Below are positions 23,188 to 31,027 of a DNA stretch of 64,000 nucleotides, in pieces. Origin of the DNA: Bacteroidales bacterium (GTDB lineage: Bacteria > Bacteroidota > Bacteroidia > Bacteroidales > JAQUTK01). A program made the translations under genes and the position numbers. The stretch's first letter is position 1; each line of letters opens with the position of its first letter. The stretch lies in contig JAQUTK010000004.1 in NCBI GenBank assembly GCA_028709785.1, forward strand, positions 62,001 through 126,000. Direction: 5' to 3'. The notes under the pieces were generated by a model. The model was not told the DNA's origin. It worked only from the letters and a program-made list of their open reading frames with translations, and ran no database searches.

Positions 23188-24279
23188 ATGCTGCTGAAAA
23201 GATTAGATACATATATCATTAAAAAGTTCCTCGGAACCTATGTATTCTCGATTGCTTTGATCCTGAGTATCGCTGTTGTCTTTGATATCAACGAAAAGCT
23301 GGATAAGTTTATGAGTTACAACGCTCCGCTTCGGGCAATCATTTTTGATTATTATCTGAACTTTGTCCCCTATTTCGCCAATCTTTTCAGCGCTTTATTT
23401 GTTTTTATTTCTGTCATCTTCTTCACTTCCAACCTAGCGGGCAATTCTGAGTTTATTGCTATGCTAGCAAGTGGAACAAGTTTCAAGCGGATCATGCGTC
23501 CGTATATGATCTCCGCAGCTATCATTGCTGTTTTCAACTTCGCCCTGAGCGCTTTTATTATTCCACCGTCCAACCAGGCCATGCAGAACTTCTTGCAGAC
23601 CTATGTCAAGAAACGGCCTCAGACGGAAGCTCAGCTTGATATCCAGTTTGAAGTCGAAAAAGATGTGATCGTTTATATCAGCCGCTTTGAAAATGCAGAG
23701 AATACAGGCTATCGGTTCTCTCTGGAAAAATTTGACGGCAAACAGCTCAAATCACGTCTGACCGCCTCAACAATAAAATACGATTCAGGTAATGTTTGGA
23801 CAGTCCGGAATTATATGATCCGTAACTTTGACGGAATGCGTGAGAATATCATTAAAGGAGAAATAAACGCACCACTGGACACCACCATACAGATGGATCT
23901 ATCGGACATGAAATCGTCTGAAGGATTGAGTACGGAAATGACATCACCACAACTAAAGCGTTATATCGATAAACAGAGGAGAAGGGGGATCGGTAACCTG
24001 AGCGAATTTGAGATTGAATATCATCGGCGCTTTGCCCGTTCACTGGCAGCATTTATTCTGACAGCCATTGGACTCTCACTGGCTTCGCAAAAGAGAAAGG
24101 GAGGTATGGGTCTGCATCTGGGTATCGGACTGGGGTTAAGTTTCTCATACATACTTTTTGATACTGTATCCTCTACTTTTGCCGTAAATGGAGAAATGAA
24201 TGTCATATTGGCAGTTTGGCTTCCAAATCTTGTGTATTCACTTATTGCTATTGTGCTTTACCGCAACGCTCCAAAATAA
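23188..24279 (+). CDS. LptF/LptG (YjgP/YjgQ) family permease
   Basis: This 363-residue inner-membrane protein has two N-terminal membrane segments (LIIKKFLGTYVFSIALI-like, here YIIKKFLGTYVFSIALILS), a periplasmic beta-jellyroll domain, and a C-terminal membrane bundle from about residue 280. LptF/G with LptB and LptC extract LPS from the inner membrane for transport to the surface. I cannot decide between LptF and LptG by eye, and other lpt genes are not in the window. It begins 10 bases after tgt. Confidence 0.88.
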   Translation: MLLKRLDTYIIKKFLGTYVFSIALILSIAVVFDINEKLDKFMSYNAPLRAIIFDYYLNFVPYFANLFSALFVFISVIFFTSNLAGNSEFIAMLASGTSFKRIMRPYMISAAIIAVFNFALSAFIIPPSNQAMQNFLQTYVKKRPQTEAQLDIQFEVEKDVIVYISRFENAENTGYRFSLEKFDGKQLKSRLTASTIKYDSGNVWTVRNYMIRNFDGMRENIIKGEINAPLDTTIQMDLSDMKSSEGLSTEMTSPQLKRYIDKQRRRGIGNLSEFEIEYHRRFARSLAAFILTAIGLSLASQKRKGGMGLHLGIGLGLSFSYILFDTVSSTFAVNGEMNVILAVWLPNLVYSLIAIVLYRNAPK

Positions 24280-24286
24280 CAGAAAG

Positions 24287-24883
24287 ATGAAACTAATATC
24301 CAAAGTATCAATAGACTGCAGCAGATACATGCCATCCAAAGATGTGTTACTGTTTCTGATTCTGTTGTTTGGAAGTCATTTTTTGTGGAAAATTGTGATG
24401 AATGAGGATATCCAGGGAGATCGTATTGCCTTTTTGGGAATTGATCTGAGCAGTTCTTTCAGAATCCTTTCTCTGTTTTATGCCAAACTCACGGCTACAA
24501 TTCTTCAACTGTGTGGCGATGATGTACGTTTGGATCAAGGAACAAAACTGCTCTTTGGAGATGGTTTCAAACTCGTTGTTATATGGGGTTGTACTGCTGT
24601 CAAACAAGTGTATATGCTTGCAGTAATCCTTATTTTTAGCCGTGGTCCCAGAAAGCCGAAACTATGGTTTATACCGGTATGTTCTTTCCTGCTTGTAGTT
24701 TTCAATAGTTTTCGAATCACTCTTATTGCTCATTTTACAAGTATTGACCCTGCATTGTTTGACATATTACATGAAGTATTCCGAATTCTGTTTTATGGCA
24801 TTATATTTGTTATGTGGGTGATATGGGAAGAACGTTTTCACCTTCCGGCCATCTCATCTTATTCTATAAAGAAATCTGCATGA
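24287..24883 (+). CDS. Exosortase/archaeosortase-family membrane protein
   Basis: This 198-residue protein has about five or six membrane segments and the catalytic triad pattern of exosortases. Cys102 lies in VVIWGCTAVKQ, Arg143 in VVFNSFRITLIAHF and His162 in DILHEVFRILFYG. Exosortases are membrane transpeptidase-like enzymes that cleave sorting tails, so an XrtF-like role is possible. No PEP-CTERM-like substrate is seen here. The ATG at 24287 lies 7 bases after the permease stop; a further-upstream in-frame start inside lptF/G is unlikely. Its stop overlaps the DUF4105 start (ATGA, 24880-24883), so the two are translationally coupled. Confidence 0.75.
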   Translation: MKLISKVSIDCSRYMPSKDVLLFLILLFGSHFLWKIVMNEDIQGDRIAFLGIDLSSSFRILSLFYAKLTATILQLCGDDVRLDQGTKLLFGDGFKLVVIWGCTAVKQVYMLAVILIFSRGPRKPKLWFIPVCSFLLVVFNSFRITLIAHFTSIDPALFDILHEVFRILFYGIIFVMWVIWEERFHLPAISSYSIKKSA

Positions 24884-26064
24884 AAAGATTTGTATTTTTT
24901 TTCTTGATGCTCTTTTGCTTTTCGCTTTTCGCAAAGGCTCAGCAACTAAACGATGACACACAAATCAGTGTGCTAATTACTGCACCAGGCAACGAATCCT
25001 ATTCAGCTTTCGGGCACGCTTCTATCCGGGTAAAGGAGAAAAGTATAGATATGGATTATGTTTTTAATTACGGACTGTTTGATTTTAATGCACCAAACTT
25101 TCTCTATCGTTTTGTAAAAGGTGAAACTGATTACATGCTCGGCATACAGCTTTTCTTCGATGCAAGCATGGATGCCAAACTGGAGAACAGGAAGATGAGC
25201 GAAATGGTGCTCAACCTGACTCTCGAAGAGAAACAGGTTTTGTTTGATTCGCTGATCAAAAATGCACTTCCTGAAAACAGAGTCTATCGCTACAACTTCA
25301 TTTATGACAACTGTGCGACACGGATTCATGATATCATTGGAAAAGGAGTAGCAAAAGTGGATTATAGCTATGCATATAAAGGAAAAACATTCAGAGAACT
25401 GATTCATGAGTTTGCTCCTGCCAACACATGGATCGGCTTTGGTGAAGATCTGTTGATTGGTGCGGATGCTGATAAGCCTGTCGAAGGGAAATATTACAGC
25501 TTCCTTCCTGAGTATCTGCAAAAAGAAATTCAAAGCGGAACAATCAATCGCGAAGGAAAGAAAGAACCTTTGGTAAGCAGCACAAAGATAATTGTCACAG
25601 CAACTTCGCAGCCGAAAGAAGAATCTCCTTTTACACCAATCAATGTCAATTGGGCGTTATTAATTATTCTGTTTTTGGTTACCCGTTCAGGGATGATCCA
25701 TTGCAAAACGATGGTCGTATTGGATGTCATTCTCTTCTCCATCGCCGGACTTGCGGGATGCCTCTTCCTCTTCATGAATCTTTATTCAACTCATCCGCTC
25801 GTTTCTCCCAACTATATTATTCTGTTCTTCCACCCTCTTCTACTGTTGCTTTTACCAATGCTTGCCGTCTCTTCGATCAGAAAATATGCAAACTATTTTC
25901 ATGCGGTTAACTTAATCTGGACGGGATGTATTATCTTTGCGTGGCATTTTATTCCACAAACAATGAACCCTGCTGTATGGCCTCTTGTTGGACTTCTTGC
26001 AATTCGTTCTGTACACAAACTCTATCTGTGGTGGTTTTCATTGCATATTAAGAAATTAGATTGA
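24880..26064 (+). CDS. DUF4105 membrane protein (candidate lipoprotein N-acyltransferase)
   Basis: This 394-residue protein has a signal peptide (to about residue 20) and a soluble DUF4105 domain with an invariant-looking His46 (SAFGHASIRV) and Cys145 (FIYDNCATRIHD), consistent with a Cys-His papain/NlpC-like catalytic pair. Four or so C-terminal membrane helices follow. As I recall, unchecked, DUF4105 proteins of Bacteroides were reported as Lnb, the enzyme that N-acylates lipoproteins in place of Lnt. I chose the ATG at 24880 because the signal peptide starts there and it overlaps the exosortase-like stop. The downstream phosphatase-like gene overlaps its stop. Confidence 0.75.
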   Translation: MKRFVFFFLMLFCFSLFAKAQQLNDDTQISVLITAPGNESYSAFGHASIRVKEKSIDMDYVFNYGLFDFNAPNFLYRFVKGETDYMLGIQLFFDASMDAKLENRKMSEMVLNLTLEEKQVLFDSLIKNALPENRVYRYNFIYDNCATRIHDIIGKGVAKVDYSYAYKGKTFRELIHEFAPANTWIGFGEDLLIGADADKPVEGKYYSFLPEYLQKEIQSGTINREGKKEPLVSSTKIIVTATSQPKEESPFTPINVNWALLIILFLVTRSGMIHCKTMVVLDVILFSIAGLAGCLFLFMNLYSTHPLVSPNYIILFFHPLLLLLLPMLAVSSIRKYANYFHAVNLIWTGCIIFAWHFIPQTMNPAVWPLVGLLAIRSVHKLYLWWFSLHIKKLD

Positions 26065-27692
26065 AGGTGAAAAAAAAGAAGAAACACAACGATTTATACT
26101 TGTCGGAGAATGTACGCAAAGTGCTTTCCTCACTGATTGTCGTATTTACTATCAGTTCGATGCAGGCACAAGAGGTGCATCAGACTCCCAAACTTGTGGT
26201 GGGTGTTACCATCGATCAGTTGAGAGGTGAATATATCGAAGCTTTTTACGATGCGTTTGGAGAGAATGGCTTTAAGCGCCTGATGAGAGAAGGATTGGTC
26301 TATCGTAACGTTCATTTTGATTTCTCTAACCTGGATCAGTCTTCGGCAATCGCCTCCATCTATTCAGGCACTACTCCTGAATATAATGGCATCCCGGGCA
26401 ACAGCTGGTACGACAGCAAGACTCAACGTGTAATCTCCTCTGCGCAAGACGGTAATTATATCGGCTATTCAACCAATGACAACACCTCACCGGCACGTCT
26501 GTTGGTATCCACAATGACCGACGAACTGGAGAATGCGACCCGCGGAAGTGCTGATATCTTTTCTTTTGCACCGGATAAAGAGGCTGCCATACTTGCAGGT
26601 GGTCACTCAGCGACTGCCGCTTTCTGGATAGAAGACAATTCTGGGAAATGGGTCTCTTCTACCTATTACAAAGAGATGCCCTGGTGGCTCAAAAAATACT
26701 CAGAAAACTCACAGCTGTCGCATCGTGTCAATGAAAACAGATGGACTCCTCTCCTGCCCATCGAACGCTATACAATTGTAGAAGAGAAACCGGAAAAGTT
26801 TTCACACGATCTCGGAAATGGTAATTTCTTTTTGTTCAAAAGTTCGCCGCTGGTAAATACTGAAATTAACCGTCTGGTACAGGAATGCCTCCATTTCGGA
26901 GCTATTGGTAAGCGCAATACAACAGACTTTATCGCCATCACCTACTCCGCCCGCAACTTCCAGCAAATGAGCAGCAAACTCTATCCTTCAGAGATGATGG
27001 ACACATATGTTCGTTTGGACAAGGAGATTGAAGCGTTACTGAAAATGCTGGATGAAAAGGTCGGATTAAACAACACGGTTCTTTTCCTTACATCAACCGG
27101 CTACGCAAATTATCTGGATCCGATTGATGAGGATGACAAAACTATAGGAGGTACTTTTTTTACAGATCGTTGTACTTCGCTGCTCAATGTCTATCTGATG
27201 GCCCTCTATGGAAAAGACTCCTGGGTTCAACATGTGACAGAGAATCAGATTTTCCTGAACCGGAAACTGATTGAGGAACGCAAACTGGAACTGAAAGAGG
27301 TACAAGAAAAAGCCTCCCGATTCCTAATGGATTTCAGTGGGATTCAGAATGTAATTCCGTCTTATAAACTGATTGGTGGCAATGACAGCGAAAGCATCGA
27401 ACGCATAAAAAAAGGTTACTACTTTAAATATGCCGGAGATATCTTCTTTGAAGTTCAACCGGGATGGGTCATTGAATCTCCGGACAGCAAACCGCAAACG
27501 GTGCGCAAAGATGCATTCAATGTACCTCTTTTCTATTTTGGAGGAGGAATTGTAGCCGAACAGATCTATCGTCCGGTAAGCATTGGAGAAATAGCAACAA
27601 CTGTCAATCGTATCCTGCGAATCAGATCACCCAACGCGGCTTCTTCCACTCCATCCTATGAATTAAAAATGACGAATACGACAACTAAATAA
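26061..27692 (+). CDS. PafA-like alkaline phosphatase-superfamily protein, probable pseudoenzyme
   Basis: This exported 543-residue protein has the alkaline phosphatase superfamily fold (phosphodiesterase/PafA branch). Similarity is clear in VTIDQLRGEY, IASIYSGTTPEYNGIPGN, AAILAGGHSA, MMDTYVRLDKEI and VLFLTS. Compared with active PafA only the first metal Asp (D52) and the Asn (N114) are kept. The nucleophile Thr is Q93, the Lys/Arg pair is D172/E174, the Asp/His ligands are N299/M303, the DH pair is T346/G347, and the last His is N487. It is therefore probably non-catalytic. The start could be TTG at 26061 (overlapping the previous stop) or GTG at 26067. secA follows by 11 bases. Confidence 0.78.
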   Translation: MKVKKKKKHNDLYLSENVRKVLSSLIVVFTISSMQAQEVHQTPKLVVGVTIDQLRGEYIEAFYDAFGENGFKRLMREGLVYRNVHFDFSNLDQSSAIASIYSGTTPEYNGIPGNSWYDSKTQRVISSAQDGNYIGYSTNDNTSPARLLVSTMTDELENATRGSADIFSFAPDKEAAILAGGHSATAAFWIEDNSGKWVSSTYYKEMPWWLKKYSENSQLSHRVNENRWTPLLPIERYTIVEEKPEKFSHDLGNGNFFLFKSSPLVNTEINRLVQECLHFGAIGKRNTTDFIAITYSARNFQQMSSKLYPSEMMDTYVRLDKEIEALLKMLDEKVGLNNTVLFLTSTGYANYLDPIDEDDKTIGGTFFTDRCTSLLNVYLMALYGKDSWVQHVTENQIFLNRKLIEERKLELKEVQEKASRFLMDFSGIQNVIPSYKLIGGNDSESIERIKKGYYFKYAGDIFFEVQPGWVIESPDSKPQTVRKDAFNVPLFYFGGGIVAEQIYRPVSIGEIATTVNRILRIRSPNAASSTPSYELKMTNTTTK

Positions 27693-27703
27693 CAAAATAA
27701 AGA

Positions 27704-30700
27704 ATGAGCTTAAACGATATAATAAAGAAACTCTTTGGAAATAAATCGCAACGGGATTTAAAAGAAATACAACCTTTTATTGATAAAATCAAGGAAGTCT
27801 ATCCGCAGATCGAAGCGTTGGACAACAACGGTCTGAGAGAGCGTGTCACCTTACTGAAAAAAGAGATCAGTGATTATGTGGCATCCGAGGTGAAAGAGAG
27901 AGATGATCTGAAGGCCTCTATTGAAGAGATGCCTCTGGAAGACAGAGAGAAGTTATTCGAGCAGATCGATAAACTGGAAAAAGAGATTACAAAGAAACTG
28001 GAGATTGCTTTAGATGAAGCGCTTCCGGTTGCTTTTGCAGCCATGAAGGAAACGGCGAAACGATTTACTGAAAACAGTGAAATTGAGGTGTTGGCCACTG
28101 ACTTTGACCGTGACCTTGCGGCTAAGAAGGATTTCGTCCGTATTCAAGGAAACTATGCTATCTACAACAATCATTGGATAGCCGGAGGTAATGACCAGGT
28201 ATGGAATATGGTTCACTATGACGTTCAGCTGTTTGGTGGAGTCGTATTACACAAAGGAAAAATCGCTGAAATGGCTACCGGAGAGGGTAAAACACTTGTA
28301 GCAACCTTACCGGTATTCCTGAATGCTTTGACCGGAAATGGAGTACACATTGTAACAGTCAATGACTATTTGTCCAAACGTGACTCGGAATGGATGGGGC
28401 CACTGTATCAGTTCCACGGTTTGTCCGTAGACTGTATTGATAAACACCGTCCTAATTCTGAAGAACGTCGACAAGCTTATATGGCCGACATTACATTCGG
28501 AACCAATAATGAGTTTGGATTTGACTACCTGCGTGATAATATGGCTACTTCACCCGAAGATCTGGTGCAACGCAAACACAATTATGCGATTGTCGATGAG
28601 GTTGACTCCGTGTTGATTGATGATGCACGTACTCCTTTAATCATTTCGGGTCCCATACCAAAAGGCGAAGAACAACTATTTGATGAATTCTGTCCAAGAG
28701 TAGAGAAGCTTGTCAACGCTCAAAAAGCTCTTACCACCCGCCTGCTGGCAGATGCTAAAACATTGCTGAAAGAAGGTAACAGCAAAGAACAACTGGAGGA
28801 AGGATCACTCCTTCTCTATCGTTCGCACAAAGGTCTGCCAAAGAACAAACCTTTGATCAAGTTTCTCAGCGAAACGGGTATGCGCACAACCATGCTTAAA
28901 ACAGAAGAGTTTTACATGCAGGACAATATGCGTGAGATGCATAAAGTAACAGATCCGCTTTACTTTGTGATTGATGAGAAGAACAACTCAATTGAGATGA
29001 CAGATAAAGGAAATGATCTGATTTCCGCAGATCTTGGTGATCCAGACTTCTTCGTATTACCGGATATTGGCTCACAACTCTCTGAGTTGGAAAATATGGG
29101 ATTATCGGAAGAAGAAAAGATTGCCCGGAAAGATGAGTTAATGGCAGAATACAGCATTAAATCTGAACGGGTACACACTGTCAATCAGCTACTGAAGGCG
29201 TATGCCATGTTTGAGAAAGACGATGAATATGTGGTGATTGATAACCAGGTCAAGATCGTCGACGAACAGACCGGCCGTATTATGGAGGGACGTCGCTATT
29301 CAGATGGACTTCACCAGGCGATTGAAGCTAAAGAACGTGTAAAAGTGGAATCTGCCACACAGACTTTCGCAACAATCACTTTGCAGAACTACTTCCGCAT
29401 GTATCACAAGCTTTCCGGTATGACCGGTACTGCAGAAACAGAAGCAGGTGAGTTTTGGAATATATACAAATTGGATGTGGTTGTTATCCCTACGAACAAA
29501 CCGGTGACCCGTAATGACATGAACGATCGTGTATATCGTACAGCACGAGAGAAATATGCAGCCGTAATCCAGGAAATTATTGAGATGAACAAGCAAGGTC
29601 GTCCAGTATTGGTGGGTACCACTTCTGTGGAAATATCCGAGTTACTGAGTCGTATGCTTGTCATGAACAAAATTGACCATAATGTCTTGAATGCTAAACT
29701 TCACCAACGCGAGGCGGACATTGTCGCACAAGCAGGAAAAAGTGGTACAGTAACAATTGCTACAAATATGGCGGGACGTGGTACCGACATTAAGCTGAGT
29801 GATGAAGTAAAGGCTGCAGGTGGTTTGGCAATTATTGGTACCGAACGCCATGAATCGCGCCGTGTGGACCGCCAGTTGCGCGGTCGTTCAGGACGACAAG
29901 GAGATCCGGGATCTTCTGTATTCTTTATCTCTCTGGAAGATAATCTGATGCGCGTATTCGGTTCTGAACGTATTCAATATGTGATGGACAAACTTGGTTT
30001 TAAAGAAGGTGAAGTCATTGAGCACAAAATGATCTCAACATCTATCGAACGCGCACAGAAAAAAGTTGAAGAGAATAACTTTGGAATTCGAAAAAGACTG
30101 CTTGAATATGACGACGTAATGAATGCTCAACGTGAAGTCATCTACACCAAACGCAAGCATGCTTTGATGGGAGAACGTATCGGAACGGACATTGTGAATA
30201 TCTTGTATGACGTTTCTACTGACATTGTTCATGAAGCTCTGGAATCCAACAATCTCGAACTCATGAGAGAGGAAGTGATCCGTGTACTCGGTCTGGAGTT
30301 GAAGACTACGAAAGAGGAAATGCAGAATAAGAAAACGGATGCTCTGATTGACGAGCTCTTTGAAACGGCTCTCGAGACCTTTAAACGTAGAATGGATCGG
30401 ATGGCTACAGTCGCTTATCCGGTTATCAAACAAGTATATGAGAACCAAGGTCAGATGTACCAAAACATTCTTATTCCTGTTACAGATGGTAAACGGATGT
30501 ACAATATCACATGCAATCTGGAAGCAGCCTATAATACGGAATGTAAAGAGGTAGTCAAATCATTTGAGAAATCAATTCTGCTCCATACCATTGACGAACT
30601 TTGGAAAGAGCACTTACGTGAACTGGATGAGTTACGTAACTCAGTTCAGAATGCAAGCTACGAACAAAAAGATCCATTATTGATTTACAAGCTTGAATCA

Positions 30701-31027
30701 TACGGTCTCTTTAAGAAAATGGTAAACTCCATGAATAAAAAAGCAGCTTCTGTTCTGATGCGTGGACAGATACCTGTACGCGAACCGGAAGAGGTACATC
30801 AGGCTGCTCCTGAAAAGAAACAGGACTTCAGTAAATACAGAACGTCAAAGGACGAAACGGAACAGCCCAAAAGACAGTTATCTCCAGGACAACGTCCTCC
30901 GCTACCGGGAGAGCATCAGGAAATCAATCATGAGCCGGTACGTGTAGAAAAGAGAGTTGGTAGAAATGATCCATGTCCTTGCGGAAGTGGAAAAAAATAC
31001 AAAAACTGTCACGGAAAAGAAGAGTAA
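27704..31027 (+). CDS. secA: Preprotein translocase ATPase SecA
   Basis: SecA (1107 residues) drives protein export through SecYEG. Walker A is in [11 protein letters not shown], Walker B in [15 protein letters not shown], the second helicase domain in [10 protein letters not shown] and [18 protein letters not shown], and the C-terminal zinc/SecB-binding tail ends in [16 protein letters not shown]. It is longer than the roughly 900 of E. coli SecA because of insertions typical of Bacteroidota, including a charged one near residues 55-95. A strong terminator follows. Confidence 0.97.

Follow-up and report, generated by a model that had tools for sequence, protein, structure and literature searches.

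The DUF4105 family was identified in 2024 as the lipoprotein N-acyltransferase Lnb, according to the passages of two later papers that cite the discovery (PMC12994826 and PMC13103446, citing Armbruster 2024). No partner of Lnb was found described in the literature covered, which did not include the discovery paper itself, and a literature search by the gene names BT4363/BT4364 returned nothing. The periplasmic domain of the cardiolipin-binding protein PbgA/YejM has an alkaline phosphatase fold from which the catalytic residues are missing (PMC7018646). The substrates of the exosortase XrtF are predicted to differ from PEP-CTERM signals (PMC10936215).

Here we describe a locus in which relatives of these proteins are encoded side by side. 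It lies in a 64,000-nucleotide stretch of a Bacteroidales genome, referred to below as the window. We give an even chance to the reading that it is a Bacteroidales lipoprotein-maturation locus, composed of lnb, a non-catalytic partner derived from the phosphatase PafA (“pseudo-PafA”), and secA, in front of which an orphan exosortase was added in this genus. Its features are as follows, L064 being a sister species and L067 a contig from a termite-gut bin.

23188..24279, + strand: gene of an LptF/LptG-type LPS export permease (PF03739, 6.5e-66, closest to LptG), given as context, directly upstream of the exosortase gene
24287 (ATG)..24883 (stop), + strand: exosortase-family gene (xrt), 198 aa (PF09721, TIGR04178), with several transmembrane helices
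24590..24592, + strand: codon of the putative nucleophile Cys102 of the exosortase, from sequence and alignment
24880..24883, + strand: ATGA overlap of the xrt stop and the lnb start, kept in L064 and present in L067
24880 (ATG)..26064, + strand: lnb, lipoprotein N-acyltransferase by sequence, 394 aa, with a signal peptide, an NlpC/P60-like domain with H46/C145, and a C-terminal Lnb membrane domain
26061..26064, + strand: TTGA overlap of the lnb stop and the PafA-like start, kept in L064
26061 (TTG)..27692, + strand: pseudo-PafA, a PafA-like phosphatase without catalytic residues, 543 aa, matching PDB 5tj3; predicted secreted periplasmic protein
26061..26168, + strand: predicted signal peptide of pseudo-PafA, ending at the conserved Ala36-Gln37, a Q-rule signal peptidase I site
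27704..31027, + strand: secA, conserved neighbour downstream of pseudo-PafA

The arrangement of three overlapping genes before secA is just as an earlier note on this DNA had it, in its coordinates, in the ATGA and TTGA overlaps and in the residues named, and both overlaps are retained in the sister species. Of the 970 co-directional gene pairs sampled in the window's genome, 170 overlap; such short overlaps are thus ordinary in themselves and hint, at most, at co-transcription. Genome-wide searches revealed a single Lnb, a single exosortase and a single PafA-like gene; no second member of any of the three was present in the 2.05 Mb read.

To judge from its sequence, the gene at 24880–26064 is the lipoprotein N-acyltransferase Lnb. 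In the profile search its product matched NF051878 (E=4.5e-110) and was covered over its full length by the PF13387 (Lnb_N) and PF25221 (5TMH_Lnb) domains. The H46 and C145 residues of the permuted NlpC/P60 fold are invariant in an alignment of 31 Lnb proteins. Both the DUF4105/Lnb assignment and the Cys145/His46 pair proposed earlier are borne out. The active site is intact, and dN/dS of lnb against the sister species of the same genus is about 0.11, a value indicating purifying selection on this gene too. The score of 368 bits is below the NCBIfam NF051878 equivalog cut-off of 550, a naming threshold probably set for closer Bacteroides relatives.

The downstream protein matches PafA by sequence (PDB 5tj3, E=7.4e-63; NF042991, E=2.4e-103), scoring 346 bits against an equivalog cut-off of 650, and its model superimposes on 5tj3 with Z 48.8 and rmsd 2.8 over 487 aligned residues at 28% identity. 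Compared to EmPafA, eight of the ten catalytic residues are replaced (T79Q, K162D, R164E, D305N, H309M, D352T, H353G, and H486Q), which justifies the label “pseudo-phosphatase” already given to it. Only D38 and N100 remain, D38 being the sole survivor among the nucleophile T79, the K162/R164 pair and the six metal ligands. In all 23 PafA-like proteins encoded next to lnb, T79, K162, R164, D305, D352, H353, and H486 are absent, H309 survives in one, and each protein lacks at least four of the six metal ligands. Two members of the same clade located away from lnb (L149 and L157) have likewise lost the catalytic residues; all ten are kept in 27 PafA proteins from other Bacteroidota classes, none of which is found beside Lnb. 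An active PafA phosphatase is therefore rejected for the window protein and for all its lnb-adjoining relatives, while some other catalytic activity, built on different residues, may exist.

In a phylum-wide sample, the profile scores of the pseudo-PafA clade (676–780 bits) are separated by an empty gap from the rest (at most 401 bits). The clade has 38 invariant fold residues in common with active PafA; of the residues that never vary in active PafA it has lost 22, and 17 are fixed in it alone, including Gly at the H353 position. Between two species of the window's genus, dN/dS of the pseudo-PafA gene is about 0.044, which means that it is strongly constrained. Q37 follows the predicted signal peptide in 18 of the 19 pseudo-PafA homologues, and cleavage at Ala-Gln represents the Q-rule of Bacteroidetes signal peptidase I, as given in the relevant passages of two papers (PMC5837995, PMC10653852). 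Since the signal peptide ends at this conserved site, pseudo-PafA is probably a soluble exported protein.

A second PafA-like group occurs in Bacteroidales (L166, L168, L170, L171, and L173), beside neither lnb nor secA. It is partly degenerate, with D38 changed to Glu and the other ligands mixed, and possibly represents another phosphatase lineage losing or changing its activity.

The neighbourhood sample comprised 149 Bacteroidales genomes, 71 of them with Lnb. A co-directional PafA-like gene adjoins lnb in 23 of these 71, and at nearly all such loci secA is the next gene, within 1.5 kb of pseudo-PafA. No genome of the sample has pseudo-PafA without Lnb. About two thirds of the Lnb genomes do not have pseudo-PafA, and in the L051 lineage lnb directly adjoins secA, so pseudo-PafA is not universally needed; given this frequency of absence, it would be a helper of Lnb and not an essential subunit. 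In the family f30, pseudo-PafA is located apart from lnb (L149, L157). One genome of this family (G030; L040 and L157) has two Lnb genes, and its pseudo-PafA is still beside secA. Across the relatives, the conserved unit is lnb plus pseudo-PafA, with secA, and the exosortase gene is a local addition.

The exosortase gene product was recognised by PF09721 (E=1.3e-7) and TIGR04178 (E=1.2e-11; 44.7 bits with the cut-off at 23), and its AlphaFold2 model has a pLDDT of 86.8. The Cys-Arg-His triad pointed out in the earlier note (C102, R143, and H162) is intact and invariant in an alignment of 17 diverse exosortases, and dN/dS of about 0.17 against L064 indicates purifying selection. The protein probably works as a cysteine transpeptidase whose substrates are few or unusual, and it may be made together with Lnb. 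It scores far under the cut-offs of the named exosortases that it hits. Identity with XrtX (NF046081) was rejected at 61.5 bits against a cut-off of 170, below which ten of ten tested Bacteroidota relatives also fall, as was identity with XrtF (TIGR04128) at 37.3 bits against 90. Solved relatives were found neither by sequence profile nor by Foldseek at E ≤ 0.001.

Exosortase homologues are present in 56 of the 149 Bacteroidales genomes, and a tree of 80 homologues has two clades. The XrtX-like clade often occurs in polysaccharide loci, together with genes of the FemAB family and for polysaccharide deacetylases. The window gene belongs to the other clade, spread in Paludibacteraceae, Dysgonomonadaceae and their kin, which lies outside exopolysaccharide clusters and has no femAB context; its neighbours are tsaD, tamB-like, lptC, type III pantothenate kinase and lipid A acyltransferase genes. 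At L085:1174-1764, an exosortase gene has tsaD on one side and a type III pantothenate kinase gene on the other. This arrangement connects the contexts seen in Paludibacter and Dysgonomonas, which suggests that it is the ancestral neighbourhood of the clade.

Among the 149 genomes, the exosortase gene adjoins lnb in the window's genus alone, and a survey of 393 Bacteroidales genomes, in one of which the lnb position is not listed, added no further case. The proposal of a conserved three-gene xrt-lnb-pafA system is thereby rejected: in the sampled genomes outside this genus, the exosortase gene and lnb are apart. The narrower idea of the earlier note, a coupling of exosortase and Lnb through a shared substrate, fared better in one part, because a contig of the termite-gut bin Gx485_bin205 (L067) provides an independent second pair, while the genes are mostly unlinked and no shared substrate was found. 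In L067 an exosortase of the same clade, 43% identical, is followed by Lnb with an ATGA overlap. On well supported branches, the Lnb of L067 falls with those of the Symbiothrix-like genomes G150/G151 and away from the window Lnb. A single origin of the pair, which the exosortase tree alone would allow, is rejected since the Lnb tree forces two changes; the adjacency thus evolved twice. In G150/G151 lnb is beside pseudo-PafA and the exosortase gene near lptC, from which it follows that in L067 lnb moved beside the exosortase at the latter's usual site. The opposite move took place in the window's genus, where lnb stayed at its usual site and the exosortase moved beside it. That two derived pairs agree in gene order and in overlap lends modest support to a functional link, suggestive but post hoc.

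A caveat on the second pair is that the bin Gx485_bin205 (L067, L088, L294, and L303) has two exosortase genes as well as two Lnb genes, which belong to different branches, and is therefore probably a mixture of two organisms.

Lnb is present in 19 of 19 genomes with exosortases of the window's clade (15 close matches and four of the Dysgonomonas type, assigned by score and motif and not by tree) versus 188 of 393 in the whole sample; among the genomes whose clade members were reached by way of contigs, it is present in 14 of 16. The co-occurrence may be due to common descent.

As the earlier note had stated, there is no sorting substrate near the exosortase gene. The genome search that it proposed for C-terminal sorting tails yielded no tail family: in 2.05 of 3.55 Mb (58%), with proteins of at least 50 residues covered, we found no recurrent protein combining a signal peptide with a hydrophobic C-terminal helix and a basic end, only a few unrelated single proteins, and PID-CTERM gave nothing over threshold in the window's genome. 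Few large proteins of the sample look like a sorting substrate; one that does is the product of L194:11294-13855, which is 853 residues long and has a signal peptide and, at the C-terminus, a single transmembrane tail with Arg as its last residue.

One can suppose that the locus is only a housekeeping neighbourhood, where common inheritance and joint expression keep lnb, pseudo-PafA and secA together and the exosortase is present by chance. Indeed, the adjacency of lnb and pseudo-PafA may reflect expression with secA alone, gene overlaps are common in this genome, exosortases of the clade are found in relatives in unrelated contexts (tsaD/tamB-like, lptC/pantothenate kinase, lipid A acyltransferase), and the xrt-lnb pair is restricted to two lineages. 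However, this pair formed on two occasions, each time in the same order and with an ATGA overlap, and pseudo-PafA, which adjoins lnb in many families, does not occur in genomes that lack Lnb; we regard this explanation as plausible, though short of probable. The exosortase may also be an ordinary one, serving a conventional but divergent sorting system with substrates that were missed, which is compatible with the lipoprotein-maturation reading and to which we assign slightly less than an even chance. Its intact triad, purifying selection and TIGR04178 membership agree with such a role, and substrates could be encoded in the 42% of the genome, or among the proteins below 50 residues, outside the tail search; yet the searched 58% has no tail family, and the clade, unlike the XrtX-like one, has no exopolysaccharide or femAB context.

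The explanation that develops the earlier note's idea of a shared substrate, namely that the exosortase processes or anchors the C-terminus and Lnb acylates the N-terminus of the same lipoproteins, appears to us quite improbable. The two independent ATGA-overlapped pairings and the occurrence of Lnb in every genome with the closest exosortases (19/19 versus 188/393) are in its favour, and archaeosortase substrates are lipid-anchored (PMC7157517). However, xrt and lnb are unlinked in most relatives, the co-occurrence is confounded by phylogeny, and neither a recurrent tail in 2.05 Mb nor a PID-CTERM match over threshold was obtained.

Under the preferred reading of a lipoprotein-maturation locus, pseudo-PafA would be an exported, non-catalytic protein that works as Lnb's partner on the periplasmic side of the inner membrane. 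Its ligand could be the phospholipid acyl donor, the lyso-lipid product or the apolipoprotein; through such binding it would present the substrate or adjust N-acylation by Lnb. The exosortase, with few or unusual substrates, would be made together with Lnb. A bolder version is that pseudo-PafA is a dedicated pseudoenzyme, serving Lnb non-catalytically when lipoproteins are triacylated in much of Bacteroidales, and that an orphan exosortase was independently wired into the same transcript in two lineages, acting on the same envelope proteins; we consider this unlikely. The pseudo-PafA gene beside lnb in many Bacteroidales families offers a single-gene, directly testable lead on lipoprotein finishing and, if the proposal is true, a second envelope-lipid pathway besides that of PbgA/YejM would be served by a degenerate alkaline phosphatase fold. 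The orphan exosortase clade adds another case in which to study exosortases that have no recognised substrates.

In comparison with the described systems, the window Lnb resembles the Lnb (DUF4105) of Bacteroides in its full-length match, the same two domains and the invariant His/Cys pair, while its identity to the sampled Lnb proteins of other families is at most 41%. With XrtX and XrtF, the window exosortase has in common the Cys-Arg-His triad and the overall profile match, but it falls far below both cut-offs and is located outside exopolysaccharide clusters; XrtF (PMC10936215) is similar to it in having substrates predicted to differ from PEP-CTERM signals. Pseudo-PafA has the fold and the 38 invariant residues of the PafA alkaline phosphatase (5tj3) but not eight of its ten catalytic residues. 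In this respect it is comparable to PbgA/YejM/LapC of enterobacteria, where a periplasmic domain of the alkaline phosphatase superfamily without catalytic residues is tied to envelope lipids (PMC7018646). PbgA is membrane-anchored, whereas pseudo-PafA is predicted to be soluble, and the likeness is one of analogy only; by this analogy, PbgA/YejM would be a precedent for a degenerate alkaline phosphatase fold in an envelope-lipid protein.
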